Program-made: the position numbers and the translations under genes
Part shown: one piece after another, positions 5,317 to 10,712 of the stretch
How the letters are laid out: each line of letters starts with the position of its first letter
Position numbering within the stretch: position 1 is the first letter of the stretch
Notes under the pieces: model-generated
What the model saw: the letters and a program-made list of their open reading frames with translations, nothing else
What the model was told of the DNA's origin: nothing
Database searches by the model: none
NCBI GenBank assembly: GCA_006218045.1
Contig: VBWB01000018.1
Location: forward strand, 1 to 61,857
Length of the DNA: 61,857 nucleotides
Direction: 5' to 3'
From: Stygiobacter sp.
Lineage (GTDB): Bacteria; Pseudomonadota; Alphaproteobacteria; Rhodospirillales; Magnetospirillaceae

Positions 5317-5348
5317 CGGTCCGTCTGGCAACAGGCGGGCCGTTTTTT
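5317..5348 (+). terminator. Rho-independent terminator after mch
   Basis: An 11-base stem (CGGTCCGTCTG / CAGGCGGGCCG, two G-U pairs) closed by a GCAA tetraloop is followed by six T residues. It lies 16 bases after the mch stop codon. Confidence 0.85.
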
Positions 5349-5425
5349 ATGTGGTGAAGAGATTTGACGCCTAAGCCCGTGCCCCCCATAATTTTCCAGT
5401 TTCTTTCTGCCCAAGGCTGTCGGCG

Positions 5426-6400
5426 ATGATCACTGATTTCTCCATTTCCAACTACCGTTGCTTCAGCAACCTGAGTATTTCTGGGTTGTCACAAGTGAAC
5501 CTTGTGGTGGGAAAGAATGGTTCAGGAAAGTCGGCTCTTTTGGAAGGGATTTGGCTCTCAAAGTCCATATTCCCTGCGGTAACTTGTACTGATGTGTTGC
5601 GGATTAGGGATGAATTACCCGAGGAGGGGGCATCCGAGAGTGATCTTTTGTCGTCTTATAAGTCACTCTATCTGGCGGAAGGCCATTTTTTGGTGTCGTG
5701 TTTAGATGACGGAAATTTTTATGAAAATAAAGTTGAGTTTAGTATGCTGCCGGTTAGGGGGAGAATTTCAATATATTGCTGGGATAACGATGGTAATTCC
5801 GAGATCGATATACCATCTATTTTGGCTGAGCGTGATTATGTAGTAGCTGGAATTTTCGAGCCCATATTTATTCCGTGTTCTGGATTTAATAAGAAGGCTC
5901 TATCTTCTTACTGGGATAGAATAAGTTTGACGGACCTGGAAGATGATGTCACCGAAGTTGTTAAGTTGATACGCCCAGATGGTCGGCGCATAGCTTTCAT
6001 TGGGCGGCATCCCGTTGTGCAGATACCGGGAAGAGGCCCTGTGCCCATGGCGCGGCTCGGGGATGGTGTCTTGCGCGCCTTTGGTATTGCTGTCGCAATC
6101 GCCAATTCTTCTAATCAGCCTCTTTTTATCGACGAAATCGAAACAGGTATTCACTACACCGCCATGGGTGACTTGTGGCGTTCGGTTTTTCATCTAGCCT
6201 CGAAGCTGAATGTGCAGGTTTTCGCCACGACCCATTCTTGGGATTGCATTAAGGCGTTTGGTGAAGTTGCTCAGACTTATTCCGGTACCAGCGCTCAATT
6301 GATCCGGATGGAACGAGATGAGGACGATGCCATTCGTGCTGTGCAATATGATCGCGACAGCTTGGTCGCCGCCACCAGCCAGGGTATCGAGGTGCGGTGA
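5426..6400 (+). CDS. AAA ATPase (AAA_15/AAA_21, OLD-like), likely defence gene
   Basis: A 324-residue SMC/ABC-type ATPase. It opens with MITDFSISNYRCFSNLSI, the characteristic start of AAA_15/AAA_21 and RecF/OLD-like ATPases. Walker A is GKNGSGKS at 29-36, Walker B is LFIDEIETG with acidic residues 236-237, and a switch histidine lies in ATTHS near 270. No nuclease domain is attached; the protein overlaps by one base a TOPRIM-like partner gene. Base composition is clearly AT-richer than all neighbours and rare codons are frequent, which suggests recent transfer. The closest conceptual matches are the ATPase subunits of split OLD, PARIS or Gabija-like antiphage systems, which is inference. Confidence 0.85.
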   Translation: MITDFSISNYRCFSNLSISGLSQVNLVVGKNGSGKSALLEGIWLSKSIFPAVTCTDVLRIRDELPEEGASESDLLSSYKSLYLAEGHFLVSCLDDGNFYENKVEFSMLPVRGRISIYCWDNDGNSEIDIPSILAERDYVVAGIFEPIFIPCSGFNKKALSSYWDRISLTDLEDDVTEVVKLIRPDGRRIAFIGRHPVVQIPGRGPVPMARLGDGVLRAFGIAVAIANSSNQPLFIDEIETGIHYTAMGDLWRSVFHLASKLNVQVFATTHSWDCIKAFGEVAQTYSGTSAQLIRMERDEDDAIRAVQYDRDSLVAATSQGIEVR

Positions 6401-7008
6401 TGAAGAGCAGGGTATTGTTGGTCGAAGGGGCTGACGACAAAGGGGTGTCCGTGGCGTTTTTGCAACGGAGCACGCTTGAGGTCTATGTGGAGGATGGTCA
6501 CGGCTACGAAAAACTCCGCGCTGGTTTAGGGGCTCAGCTCCTGGTCAGCGGTCGTACTCATCTGGGGGTTGTCGTTGACGCGGATGCCGATCCGGCGGGG
6601 CGTTGGCGATCCATTGCCGACGCGGTGGTGAAGTACGGTTATGTCTTGCCGGTTGAGCCTGACGCCGGCGGAACCGTGGTGCCCTCTCCGGCAAGGGGCC
6701 TGCCGGTTCTCGGTTTATGGTTGATGCCCGACAACAGTACTGACGGTATGTTGGAACATTTTGTTTCCGCCATGATCCCTGGAGATGATGTCCTGTGGCC
6801 AAGGGCCTGTGCGGTGGTGAGTGGATTGTCGGGTGAGGCGCGACCGTTTCCCGAGGTTCATCGGGTCAAGGCCGAAATCCATACTTGGCTTGCGTGGCAA
6901 AAAGAACCGGGGCGGCCCATGGGGCAGGCTATCACCAAGAAATTCCTGGAAGGAACAGCGCCGGGGGCGGCGTCCTTCCAGGCTTGGTTGGGACGCCTGT
7001 TCGCTTAG
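6400..7008 (+). CDS. TOPRIM-like protein (DUF3226-type), partner of the AAA ATPase
   Basis: A 202-residue protein starting at the ATG that overlaps the ATPase stop (ATGA), with GAGG at 6389-6392 as ribosome-binding site. An in-frame GTG at 6397 is less likely. TOPRIM-style signatures are LLVEGADDKG with Glu9, VVVDADAD with aspartates 60-64, and LMPDNSTDGMLEHF near 108-121, which is typical of DUF3226/DUF4435-like proteins. The fold binds metal and in OLD-family nucleases cuts nucleic acid. The tight coupling with an AAA ATPase indicates a two-protein complex. GC content is between that of the ATPase gene and the genome background. The gene ends four bases into the convergent hemerythrin gene. 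Confidence 0.78.
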   Translation: MKSRVLLVEGADDKGVSVAFLQRSTLEVYVEDGHGYEKLRAGLGAQLLVSGRTHLGVVVDADADPAGRWRSIADAVVKYGYVLPVEPDAGGTVVPSPARGLPVLGLWLMPDNSTDGMLEHFVSAMIPGDDVLWPRACAVVSGLSGEARPFPEVHRVKAEIHTWLAWQKEPGRPMGQAITKKFLEGTAPGAASFQAWLGRLFA

Positions 7009-7457
7009 GCCCGCAGATAATCGCGCGCGTCCATGTCCCAACTCAGCACGTGGCCCATGACCAGCTTGCGGATGAAGCGCAGCAGGCGGGCTTCCAGCTT
7101 GGCGCTGCCCAGGGTGGCGAAGCTGGCGGTAATGACCCGCAATTCCGCCTGCATCTGCCGGTGATCCTGGATGTGCCCGGTCAGGCCGGGGCAATGGCGG
7201 CGGGTCATCAGTTCTTCCTCATTGGCGAAATGGGTATCGACCAGCGCGCTCAGGCGGCGCAGTTCCTCTTCCACATCCAGGTGATGTTCGGCGTTGACCC
7301 AATCGGCATAAAAGCGGTTGAGCGCATCAATGATTTCCCGGTGCTCGTTGTCGATCATCGGGTTGCCCACCGACAAGGTCTGGTCCCAATGGATCAGTTC
7401 GCCGGTGGGAGCCGGCGGCGGCTTGCCATGAAGGTGGAGCAGATCAAGCAAGGACAT
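7005..7457 (-). CDS. Bacteriohemerythrin
   Basis: A 150-residue single-domain hemerythrin that binds O2 at a di-iron site. The full ligand set is present with family spacing: His39 (DNEH), His76 and Glu80 (HFANEE), His95 and His99, His136 and Asp141. A 20-residue N-terminal extension precedes the domain. In microaerobic bacteria such proteins store or deliver oxygen or act as oxygen sensors. It is downstream of, and probably co-transcribed with, the zinc-ribbon gene (15 bases apart). Its 3' end overlaps the TOPRIM gene tail to tail by four bases. Confidence 0.93.
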   Translation of the reverse strand: MSLLDLLHLHGKPPPAPTGELIHWDQTLSVGNPMIDNEHREIIDALNRFYADWVNAEHHLDVEEELRRLSALVDTHFANEEELMTRRHCPGLTGHIQDHRQMQAELRVITASFATLGSAKLEARLLRFIRKLVMGHVLSWDMDARDYLRA

Positions 7458-7472
7458 GATGACCTCCGCCTT

Positions 7473-7814
7473 TTATGCCGCCCAGGGCGGGTTGCCGGGA
7501 GTGGGGGGAACCGGGTCGGGCCGCACTTCACAATATTCATGGCCGTTGCGGCTGACGAACTCGCTCCAGCCGCAGGCCGGGCACAACAGCAATTCGCCGC
7601 TCTCGGCCGGGTGATGGCTCAGTGGTCCGCCGCAGGCATGGCAAAGTCGCGTTTCCGGCCGCTGCGCGGCATCGGAATGCTGATGCATATGGGGGGCCAA
7701 ATACCGCACGGCATTCAACAATTCACGCCGAAGCTCGTGCACCTCGCGACGGAGGAGGGTGATTTCCTCGGCGGTGTCGGGGGCTTTGTCGGGCAGCGTA
7801 TTGTGCGGTATCAT
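7473..7814 (-). CDS. Small coiled-coil zinc-ribbon protein
   Basis: The 113-residue product has a predicted amphipathic helix or coiled coil at 15-40 (EEITLLRREVHELRREL) and a four-cysteine zinc ribbon, Cys58-x2-Cys61 and Cys78-x2-Cys81. A histidine-rich linker (HMHQH) lies between them. No enzyme motif is seen. It starts with ATG at 7814 and reads into the bacteriohemerythrin gene, so a linked role in oxygen or metal handling is possible but unproven. Confidence 0.7.
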   Translation of the reverse strand: MIPHNTLPDKAPDTAEEITLLRREVHELRRELLNAVRYLAPHMHQHSDAAQRPETRLCHACGGPLSHHPAESGELLLCPACGWSEFVSRNGHEYCEVRPDPVPPTPGNPPWAA

Positions 7815-8085
7815 GATGCTCTCCTGTTTGTATTATTTTTATTGTTGATTATACATGATCGGAGAGTGCCTGTGCGTAATATCATTTTACAGTGGTTTTG
7901 GTAAAATTTTATACGCATGACGCGGGTAGGGCGATTCGGCTGGCGTCCATGGGGGCTCGGGCGGGGCTCTGCGTGCCTTTCATGGCTCACATGTGTGCTT
8001 CGCATGACCGGTGCTTTTAGAGGCCCCCTACCCCTTTGGGCAGGCGGCGGGTAGCTGCCCCCGCCAAAAAGTGTAGCTCACGGCG

Positions 8086-8114
8086 TTGACTCAGACGTGC
8101 CTAAACGCTAAACA
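8086..8114 (+). promoter_or_regulatory. Probable sigma-70 promoter of sdhCDAB
   Basis: TTGACT, a 17-base spacer and TAAACA lie about 70 bases before sdhC. The promoter is in the 369-base gap 7815-8183 between the divergent zinc-ribbon and sdhC genes. The rest of that gap contains an AT-rich stretch (7830-7915) likely to hold the minus-strand promoter and a tandem TTGCCGCA pair at 8116-8135. No gene is supported in it. Confidence 0.5.
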
Positions 8115-8183
8115 CTTGCCGCACATTGCCGCATGTAGGGGGCGTTTTTGCCCCGCACTTCAGAAGTCTCGGGGGCCCAATCC

Positions 8184-8564
8184 ATGAGCACGCGCAACCG
8201 GCCGCTTTCTCCGCATCTCGACGTTTATCGCCTGCCCTTGCTGGCGATCATGTCCATCACCCACCGCATTACCGGCGTCGGCCTGGTGATCGGCTTGTTC
8301 GCCCTGGCCTGGTGGCTGTGCGCCGCCGCCTCGGGCCCCGCAGAATTCGCTGTCGCCCAGGCGGTGTTCGGCTCGTTCCTGGGCAAGCTGTTCCTGTTCG
8401 GCTGGACGGTCGCCCTGTTCTTCCATCTCAGCCACGGCATCCGCCACCTGTTGTGGGATTCGGGCTGGGGCTTTGAAATTCCGCAGGCTTATCTGTCGGC
8501 CAAGGTAGCGCTGGGCGCCACATTGGTGTTGACGGTGATCGCCTGGATCATCGGTCTGGCCTAA
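8184..8564 (+). CDS. sdhC: Succinate dehydrogenase cytochrome b556 subunit
   Basis: A 126-residue membrane anchor of complex II. It begins MSTRNRPLSPHLDVYRL, the conserved SdhC N terminus, followed by SITHRITGVGL and three membrane helices. His84 in HLSHGIRHL is the expected haem b ligand. The ATG at 8184 is chosen over an upstream ATG at 8148 because family proteins start here. It is the first gene of sdhCDAB, 14 bases before sdhD. Confidence 0.95.
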   Translation: MSTRNRPLSPHLDVYRLPLLAIMSITHRITGVGLVIGLFALAWWLCAAASGPAEFAVAQAVFGSFLGKLFLFGWTVALFFHLSHGIRHLLWDSGWGFEIPQAYLSAKVALGATLVLTVIAWIIGLA

Positions 8565-8578
8565 GGGAGAACATTGAT

Positions 8579-8962
8579 ATGACCACCCTTCGCTCCCCCA
8601 TCGGTCGCGCCCGCGGCCTTGGTTCGGCCAAGTCCGGCATGGGCCATCACTGGTCGACCATCATTACCGCCGTCGGCATGATCCCGCTGACCCTGTGGTT
8701 CGTGGTGTCCATCGCCGGTCTGGCCGGTGCCGACCACGCCGTCTTCACCGCCTGGATCGCCAAGGGGGCTAATGCCGCCCTGCTGATCCTGACCATCGGC
8801 CTGACCTGCTACCACGCGTCGCTGGGTCTGACCATGGTCATCGAGGACTATGTGAGCTGCAAGGCGAAGAAGTTCGCCGCCTTGCTGGCGACCAAGCTGA
8901 TCGCTGCCCTGCTGGCGGTCGGCATGTCCGTTTCGATCCTCAAAGTCGCCATCGGAGGCTAA
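8579..8962 (+). CDS. sdhD: Succinate dehydrogenase membrane anchor subunit
   Basis: A 127-residue protein with three membrane helices. Landmarks are [11 protein letters not shown] at 16-25 and [16 protein letters not shown], whose histidine and following aspartate-tyrosine belong to the haem/quinone region. It anchors the SdhAB head with SdhC. A ribosome-binding site (GGGAGA) precedes ATG 8579. The gene is six bases from sdhA. Confidence 0.95.
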
Positions 8963-8967
8963 CCGCA

Positions 8968-10712
8968 ATGGCTGCGTACAAGATCATCGACCACACCTAT
9001 GATGTCGTGGTCGTCGGCGCCGGCGGCGCCGGCCTGCGCGCCACCATGGGCATGGGTGCCGCCGGTCTGAAGACCGCCTGCATCACCAAGGTGTTCCCCA
9101 CCCGCTCGCACACCGTGGCCGCCCAGGGCGGCATCGGCGCTTCTCTCGGCAACATGGCCGAGGATAATTGGAAGTGGCACATGTACGACACCGTCAAGGG
9201 GTCGGACTGGCTGGGCGACCAGGACGCCATCGACTTGAACATTTCGGCGTGCCGTTCTCGCGCACTCCGGAAGGCAAGATCTATCAGCGCCCGTTCGGCG
9301 GCCACATGTCCAATTTCGGTGAAAAGCCGGTGCAGCGCGCCTGCGCCGCCGCCGACCGTACCGGCCATGCCATCCTGCACACGCTGTATTCGCAGTCGCT
9401 CAAGCATTCCTGCGAATTCTTCGTCGAATATTTCGCCCTCGACCTGATCATGGAAGACGGTGTCTGCCGCGGCGTCGTCGCCTGGAACCTGGATGACGGT
9501 TCCCTGCATCGCTTCCGCGCCCACAAGGTGGTGCTGGCCTCGGGCGGCTATGGCCGCGCCTATTTCAGCTGCACCTCGGCCCATACCTGCACCGGCGACG
9601 GTCACGGCATGGTGTCGCGCGCCGGTCTGCCGTTGCAGGACATGGAATTCGTGCAGTTCCACCCCACCGGCATCTACGGTTCGGGCTGTCTGATCACCGA
9701 GGGTGCGCGCGGCGAAGGCGGCATCCTGCGCAACTCGGCGGGTGAACGCTTCATGGAGCGTTATGCCCCCACCGCCAAGGATCTGGCCTCGCGCGACGTC
9801 GTCTCGCGCGCCATGACCGTGGAAATCCGCGAGGGCCGCGGCGTCGGCAGCAGCAACGACCACATCTTCCTGCATCTGGATCACCTGGACCCGGCCGATC
9901 TGGAACTGCGTCTGCCCGGCATCTCCGAGACCTCGAAGATTTTCGCCGGCGTCGACGTGACCAAGCAGCCGATCCCGGTGCTGCCGACCGTGCATTACAA
10001 CATGGGCGGTATCCCCACCAATGTGCATGGCGAGGTGCTGCGCCCGACCGCCGACAACCCCGACGCCACCGTCGAGGGCCTGATGGCCATCGGCGAGGCG
10101 GCCTGCGTGTCGGTGCACGGCGCCAACCGTCTGGGCACCAACTCGCTGTTGGACATCGTCGTCTTCGGTCGCGCCGCCGCGCTTCGGGCCGCCGAAACGC
10201 TGAAGCCCGGCACCACCCACAAGCCGCTGGCCAAGGATGCCGGCGACAACGCGGTGGCCCGTTTCGACCGTCTGCGCAACGCCAATGGTTCCCTGCATAC
10301 CAGCGAAATCCGTCTGGCCATGCAAAAGACCATGCAGAACGACGCCGCCGTCTTCCGTACCTCGAAGACCCTGGCCGAAGGCTGCGCCAAGATGGAGGAA
10401 GTTGCCGCCACCTTGTCGCAGATCAAGATCAACGACCGTTCCACCGTGTGGAACTCGGATCTGGTCGAGGCCTTCGAGTTGGAAAACCTGATGGATTGCG
10501 CCCAGGCGACCATCGTGTCGGCGGAAGCCCGGCACGAATCGCGTGGCGCCCATGCCCACGAGGATTATCCGGATCGCGACGACGTCAACTGGCAGAAGCA
10601 CTCGCTGGCCTGGGTCGAGAACGGCAAGGTGAAGCTGGACTACCGTCCGGTCCACACCTATACGCTGACCGACGAGGTCGAGTACATCAAGCCGCAGAAG
10701 CGCGTCTACTAA
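8968..10712 (+). pseudogene. sdhA: Succinate dehydrogenase flavoprotein subunit, interrupted by a short frame-breaking deletion
   Basis: The N-terminal part (8968 to about 9237) encodes the FAD-binding start, including GAGGAGLRA and the flavinylated histidine 48 in SHTVAAQGG, and runs to [11 protein letters not shown]. The frame then changes: the normal continuation [20 protein letters not shown] is in another frame and runs uninterrupted to 10712. Compared with the family, about 13 residues (the EYMCR... segment before LEHFG) are missing, which equals a loss of about 37 bases with net frameshift near 9238. As written, translation would stop at 9447. All later motifs ([26 protein letters not shown]) are intact, so the lesion is isolated. 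It may be a sequence error, because complex II is central and the rest of the operon is intact. Confidence 0.88.

Follow-up and report, generated by a model that had tools for sequence, protein, structure and literature searches.

Two genes of the alphaproteobacterium Stygiobacter sp., here called A and B, stand between mch and a hemerythrin gene in the window, i.e. the whole stretch of 61,857 nucleotides that was analysed, and the question raised by this locus is whether the pair is an antiviral system and, if so, whether it is of a kind already described. The first-pass annotation had read positions 5426-7008 as a cassette of an ATPase and a TOPRIM-like protein, and the two ORFs were indeed found there, open and in the same direction, with matches to AAA_15/AAA_21 and DUF3226 (Table 1). 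The two genes share one base as had been proposed, within the sequence TGATG and not ATGA; B could alternatively start from a GTG at 6397, which would produce a 4-base GTGA overlap. On the other side, based on sequence reading, the stop codon of B (7006-7008) overlaps the stop codon of the hemerythrin gene on the opposite strand (7005-7007). The description of the unit as AT-richer is accurate for A (GC 47.5%, GC3 0.49) and milder for B (GC 59.9%, GC3 0.64), the flanking genes having GC 62.5% and GC3 0.84 (mch) and GC 61.8% and GC3 0.79 (hemerythrin). The genome contains a single copy of B.

Table 1. Features of the A-B locus, in window coordinates.
Feature	Position	Strand	Remarks
Putative mch terminator, hairpin and T run	5317-5348	+	By eye; left border of insert
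Promoter-like TTGACG-N17-CATAAT	5364-5392	+	62 bp upstream of the A start codon
Gene A	5426-6400	+	324 aa, OLD/AbiLi/AriA-like ABC ATPase, PDC-M38A
Walker A GKNGSGKS	5510-5533	+	A residues 29-36
Hypervariable AT-rich middle of A, residues 46-165	5561-5920	+	Candidate trigger-sensing module
Walker B acidic pair D236 E237	6131-6136	+	Sequence and alignment of 28 A proteins
H270, presumed H-loop histidine	6233-6235	+	Sequence and alignment of 28 A proteins
A/B stop-start overlap TGATG	6398-6402	+	Stop 6398-6400, ATG 6400-6402, one shared base
Gene B	6400-7008	+	202 aa, DUF3226 member, TOPRIM features, PDC-M38B
E9, TOPRIM motif I glutamate	6424-6426	+	Invariant in 27 B proteins; pairs with the VEG glutamate of OLD TOPRIM
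D60-A-D62, TOPRIM DxD	6577-6585	+	D60 invariant, D62 nearly so
B stop (+) / hemerythrin stop (-) overlap	7005-7008	.	Right border of insert

Gene A is an OLD-type ABC ATPase, as Walker A, the DE pair of Walker B, the H-loop and the ABC fold are all present. Its Pfam matches are AAA_15 (2.7e-20) and AAA_21 (7e-17), and its PADLOC matches PDC-M38A (8.7e-66), AbiLi (1.3e-51) and AriA (1.1e-22), while the structure model (pLDDT 81.9) resembles in fold PtuA, the heads of Rad50 and SMC, and OLD (6p74). The motifs predicted for A, including H270, which we take to be the H-loop histidine, were confirmed in an alignment of 28 A proteins (L008, L094, L096 and the interrupted L100 were left out), in which G29, N31, G34, K35, D236, E237 and H270 are invariant. 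The same is true of the last residue, R324, which stands just before B at a point that in a fused OLD counterpart would be near the linker, and may touch B. The window protein is short, 26 of the 27 other aligned A proteins measuring 342-392 aa and the remaining one (L088) 321. A relative of 731 aa (L096, G150:C167, 2361-4556) is extended by about 385 residues at the N-terminus, and most of its length is covered by a match to the PDC-M38A model PDLC04607.

Gene B belongs to DUF3226 (2.1e-57), a family whose function is annotated as unknown, and matches PDC-M38B (2.5e-46); these are its only matches in Pfam (up to E 1) and PADLOC, respectively, and PADLOC includes models of AriB and AbiLii. In profile-profile comparisons (HHalign), performed with family alignments built for this analysis and with E-values that refer to a single pair and not to a database, the B family matched the OLD TOPRIM (probability 83%, E 8.5e-6) and DUF4435 (79%, 1.7e-5), with RloB more distant than these two TOPRIM families (22%, 0.001), whereas the controls, hemerythrin and gene A, stayed at 0.2% and 0.3%. 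These alignments, which used 12/12 OLD-TOPRIM, 10/14 DUF4435 and 16/16 RloB loci and in which one row (L114) seems to start upstream of its own TOPRIM motif, align E9 with the motif I glutamate and D60/D62 with the DxD. The acidic residues singled out by the first-pass annotation (Glu9, Asp60-64) are conserved in 27 aligned B proteins, E9 and D60 being invariant and D13 and D62 nearly so (D62 is replaced by N in the B protein of G043). From this alignment L006 (incomplete start), L008 (39-residue remnant), L100 and L103 were dropped, as well as L094 and L096, in which B was undefined with the starts chosen.

The TOPRIM fold consists of alternating strands and helices with a glutamate after the first strand and DxD after the third. 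The AlphaFold2 model of B, obtained from 8 sequences (mean pLDDT 79.3, below 70 at residues 111-130 and 161-190), contains the elements E4-8, H11-22, E29-32, H36-47 and E54-60, a strand order that fits this fold. Structure prediction had been proposed as a check on the TOPRIM reading and agrees with it in this respect, Foldseek taken alone giving a weak signal: no match fell below E 0.001, an acylhydrolase ranked first (4.7e-3) and the OLD TOPRIM 6njv second (9.3e-3, probability 0.90), and the 50 matches listed include AriB, topoisomerase I and the RNase M5 TOPRIM, with several lipases, designed scaffolds and others ranking beside them. A search of the PDB with the single B sequence produced nothing relevant (one chance-like match, E 0.33); with the profile of the 27 proteins two AriB entries came to the top (E 0.13 and 0.15, not significant), and next came a designed protein and a pair of small TOPRIM proteins, no match being significant by itself. 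Based on the profile-profile matches with clean controls, the strand order of the model and the placement of E9, D60 and D62, B can very probably be counted among the TOPRIM proteins.

The pair is already catalogued. PADLOC-DB 2.0.0 lists it as the phage-defence candidate PDC-M38 (PDC-M38A plus PDC-M38B), a name that reportedly goes back to the preprint of Payne et al. 2024 on embedded defences. The PDC-M38A model is matched by 28/28 aligned A proteins and PDC-M38B by 27/27 B proteins, those of the window included, and with both genes adjacent, in the same order and without any defining difference, the window pair is a member of this catalogued candidate and not a new kind of system. The earlier suggestion that a DUF3226 partner may mark a less described variant is refined by this listing. 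A literature search, with bioRxiv and most subscription papers outside its scope, found no mention of "DUF3226" or "PDC-M38".

The linkage of both genes is tight. The distance between A and B is -4 to +9 bases in 27/27 measured pairs (starts chosen by the analyst), and in the loci read DUF3226 almost always comes after an OLD-type ATPase: A adjoins B in 8 of the 9 loci of one homologue set, the ninth (L008, ~8000-8125) being a 39-residue B remnant without ATPase, apparently a decayed copy, in 12/12 stretches of a second set, and in all 8 plasmid records read, although in L100 the ATPase is interrupted. One genome contains two A-B pairs in tandem (L092, G281:C199, 8713-12081), with B proteins 22-26% identical to that of the window. 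In G175 (L090, G175:C262, 634-11209) the gene order is HmaA, PDC-S06, A, B, HmaB, so that the pair is embedded inside an Hma defence operon. Along with the PDC-M38 matches and the HHalign results, this copy bears out the first-pass view of the layout, an OLD-type ATPase with a stand-alone TOPRIM protein, as a defence candidate. OLD-ABC plus TOPRIM has also been found beside BREX loci (PMC12839542).

The distribution is patchy. The DUF3226 profile (PF11536) was detected in 4 of the 99 genomes examined, the window's own genome among them, which correspond to 3/13 of the genus and 4/55 of the family, and in 0/44 other genomes of the order; among 398 sampled Pseudomonadota, own included, it was above the cut-off in 12 and at E 0.001 in 15. 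One of 14 control genomes, that of Methanocaldococcus jannaschii, was matched as well, and relatives also occur in Bacteroidota, Chloroflexota and Hydrogenedentota. A pair that was core to the whole group and always at this locus would have spoken against the defence reading; with DUF3226 in 3 of 13 genus genomes, this is not what was observed. The window copy itself is located among housekeeping genes, as are many of its chromosomal relatives (neighbours by reading, few scanned). A cellular role in repair or in the cell cycle, in which an OLD-type ATPase would work with a TOPRIM protein, would fit the position among core genes and has a parallel in Cran1, an archaeal class 5 OLD ATPase that acts outside defence, in the cell cycle (PMC12796447); given the absence of DUF3226 from 10/13 genus genomes (some of them incomplete), the plasmid copies and an identity far below that of the neighbouring mch, we regard such a role as very improbable.

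On plasmids, the pair family is present in 9 of 72,556 records, six of 4-14.3 kb, two of 39-40 kb and one of 396 kb. Toxin-antitoxin genes also occur on 4 of the 8 records read, whose gene tables are incomplete: BrnT/BrnA adjoins the pair in two, RelE/NadS adjoins it in one, and a further plasmid has BrnT/BrnA elsewhere; one plasmid carries tet(39). The record NZ_CP070094.1 (L103, 4071 bases) is a ColRNAI-type plasmid with the ATPase and two other listed genes, on which an unlisted B crosses the record start. On one plasmid the pair is preceded, at a distance of 3.3 kb, by phage tail genes. A phage-borne origin was considered and discarded, with 0 matches in 50,697 phage records and 0 of 166 viral-contig pattern matches confirmed. 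A collection of 5,426 E. coli genomes contained no near match to the pair from Klebsiella (1281 bases) or to that from Citrobacter. Altogether, A and B form a real, intact and portable ATPase plus TOPRIM pair.

Portability of this sort would also be expected of a toxin-antitoxin-like addiction or plasmid-competition module, with B as toxin and A as its keeper and phage defence incidental or absent. Besides the plasmid copies, it agrees with this that AAA:TOPRIM_OLD pairs have been tested as antitoxin and toxin (PMC10440598) and that an AbiLii homologue inhibits E. coli growth; the AbiLi partner failed, however, to neutralise AbiLii (PMC3985639), one copy of the pair is embedded in the Hma operon, and the variable middle of A described below suggests recognition of changing partners. 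Taken together we consider a pure addiction module unlikely.

The insertion site of the pair is itself informative. The pair is found between mch and sdhC in four genomes, that of the window (G000), G002, G006 and G043, and relative to the window copy the three others are 78-82% identical in mch, 35-37% in A and 49-56% in B. Among 13 genus genomes this junction holds the pair in 3, is empty in 5, contains other material in 4 and coincides with a contig end in 1 (G012, whose contig ends within mch and which is absent from the mch tree). The empty junctions measure ~55 bases between mch and hemerythrin in G007, G008 and G011 and ~110 in G005, and ~180 bases between mch and sdhC in G009. Other material is present in G001, G003, G004 and G010, by reading a periplasmic binding protein in G004 and an XRE/HigA-like antitoxin gene in G003 (L083, G003:C218, 2776-3189); the occurrence of the latter at the same place suggests that insertions may have a small hotspot here. 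In G043 a large repetitive gene, adhesin-like by reading, is located between mch and the pair (L074, G043:C19, ~5700-9000; L001 is the same stretch and was counted once). In the mch tree the window groups with G007, G005, G011 and G008 (100/99), all four of which are empty, so that the more economical explanation is a gain of the pair in the lineage leading to the window; the comparison with the empty site of G007 sets the limits of the insert from the putative mch terminator to the hemerythrin stop.

The four same-locus copies are preceded by TTGACG-N17-CATAAT or CATACT at a distance of 58-62 bases from the A start codon. The pattern TTGACN-N16-18-CATANT, picked after the four sequences had been seen, occurs once per sequence in the four scanned (61.9 kb and three of ~20 kb), and a looser one has matches in front of two of the 23 other A genes. 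The three other copies in the same interval, with the same promoter-like site, imply that mch-sdhC is not a random landing place. The horizontal transfer previously proposed for the segment between mch and hemerythrin is favored by its foreign-looking composition and its absence from the closest relatives, but the site and the three same-address copies depart from the picture of a chance arrival.

Simple vertical inheritance at the locus is disfavored by AU tests, in which the groups were named after the trees had been seen and long branches are present. The four same-locus proteins form a clade in the A tree (100/97; 98/97 with the flanks of A alone) and group weakly in the B tree (59/86). 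For B, the groups G000+G002+G006 (p-AU 0.0013) and G002+G006+G043 (0.005) were rejected, while for A the values were 0.060 for G000+G002+G006, 0.068 for G000+G006+G043 and 0.013 for G000+G043, and for the flanks of A 0.133 for G000+G006+G043. As the B tree rejects a G000+G002+G006 clade and A does not quite do so, there is a hint in these trees that copies may have been exchanged at mch-sdhC.

Gene A has a hypervariable middle. Over 378 pairs the mean identity is 50.3% at residues 1-45, 17.5% at 46-165 and 38.8% at 166-324, the limits 46 and 165 having been set by eye from the alignment. The GC3 of the middle is lower than that of its own flanks in 23/28 members (Wilcoxon 1.3e-5; the members are related and the trials not independent), including 12 of the 14 with flank GC3 >0.5, and not lower in the other 5/28. 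At four-fold sites, evaluated in 7 of the 28 members, the contrast is present in G043, G002, G006, L085 and L088 (p from 6e-8 to 4.6e-4) and not clear in the window copy (p 0.16) or in L090 (0.083); for the window copy it is modest in GC3 as well (p 0.0084). Variability alone explains part of this at most, since in the flanks variable and conserved columns are similar in GC3 (0.88/0.85 in G043, 0.82/0.86 in G002, 0.73/0.74 in G006), while the variable columns of the middle show 0.53, 0.57 and 0.45, respectively; in the window copy these values are 0.57 and 0.53 for the flanks and 0.39 for the variable columns of the middle (p 0.018). The contrast is not uniform, however, because the variable columns of B are 0.04-0.11 lower in GC3 than the conserved ones and the conserved columns of the G043 middle keep 0.79. 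A clean replacement of the middle in the window copy found no support as such, as weak matches remain to the middles of G002 and G006 (E 0.0024 and 0.0035 among 28 sequences), which makes rapid divergence an equally good account.

A variable middle whose codon composition is unlike that of the flanks in most members is new here and goes, like the shared address and the shared promoter, beyond what the first-pass annotation had found. We read residues 46-165 as the likely sensor, a role for which the segment is a candidate. A more extended proposal is tentative: the middle may be an exchangeable or fast-renewing sensor in a cassette with its own promoter that is gained, lost and exchanged at mch-sdhC across the family, so that renewal of the AT-rich segment would shift phage specificity while the ATPase flanks and the nuclease are kept.

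Based on the available evidence, which for a defence role is contextual, A and B probably constitute a self-contained two-gene antiviral system of the abortive-infection type and of the split OLD kind, in which B, once triggered, would cut nucleic acid. The PDC-M38 matches, the tight A-B spacing, the TOPRIM profile, the Hma embedding, the plasmid copies, the patchy spread and the analogy with AriA/AriB favor this reading, and the housekeeping surroundings, the Foldseek result, the low-pLDDT parts of B, the non-significant AriB match and the Cran1 precedent weigh against it. We infer complex formation, inhibition, trigger, target and antiphage phenotype as follows: A would hold B inactive until a phage signal frees or activates it; B would then cut nucleic acid by metal-dependent TOPRIM chemistry (E9, D60, D62), halting phage growth and the cell with it. 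The target would more likely be host RNA, for instance tRNA, as AriA sequesters AriB and freed AriB cleaves tRNA (PMC12409363), with DNA as the alternative. The latter leads to a variant that overlaps with this reading and differs in target and release, namely ATP-regulated DNA cutting in the manner of GajA/OLD, in which B would stay on A and nick or degrade DNA. It is a possibility to which we give less credence: the resemblance of B to the OLD TOPRIM is no weaker than that to DUF4435, and among the OLD classes OLD and GajA are DNA nucleases (PMC10568477), but the arrangement in two genes is shared with PARIS and AbiL, whose TOPRIM protein is described as a toxic effector. Now that B can be related to the TOPRIM nucleases, and catalytic residues and a candidate sensor segment can be named, the catalogued candidate becomes open to direct testing, and the same-address copies offer a natural set for studying how a defence unit changes its specificity.

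Domains are shared among defence systems (PMC10952713). PARIS (AriA plus AriB, class 4 OLD) also consists of a separate OLD-type ATPase and a TOPRIM protein. In a profile comparison of the kind called for by the first-pass annotation, the window A did match AriA, yet PDC-M38A and AbiLi score far better, and B is a DUF3226 protein of 202 aa with no match to DUF4435 up to E 1 and a remote profile similarity only, AriB measuring 308-316 aa. AbiL (AbiLi plus AbiLii), for which the ATPase match of A is second only to PDC-M38A, is likewise composed of an ATPase and a TOPRIM-related partner, but AbiLii is described as RloB-type (PMC10440598) and no match of the window B to RloB was seen up to E 1, in line with the low HHalign probability. 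In the case of MADS, A matches the MAD3 ATPase far below the cut-off (48.7 vs 420 bits), and mad4 is matched by 1 of 27 B proteins (9.4e-4), not by that of the window. Gabija GajA and the class 1 OLD nucleases have the same two domains in the same order; here these are on separate genes, and the neighbours are, by reading, mch and hemerythrin and no helicase. As the partner protein of PARIS, AbiL and Gabija was looked for in each case and not found, the pair is not filed under any of them. By analogy, it most likely works like PARIS or AbiL while falling outside the definition of either.
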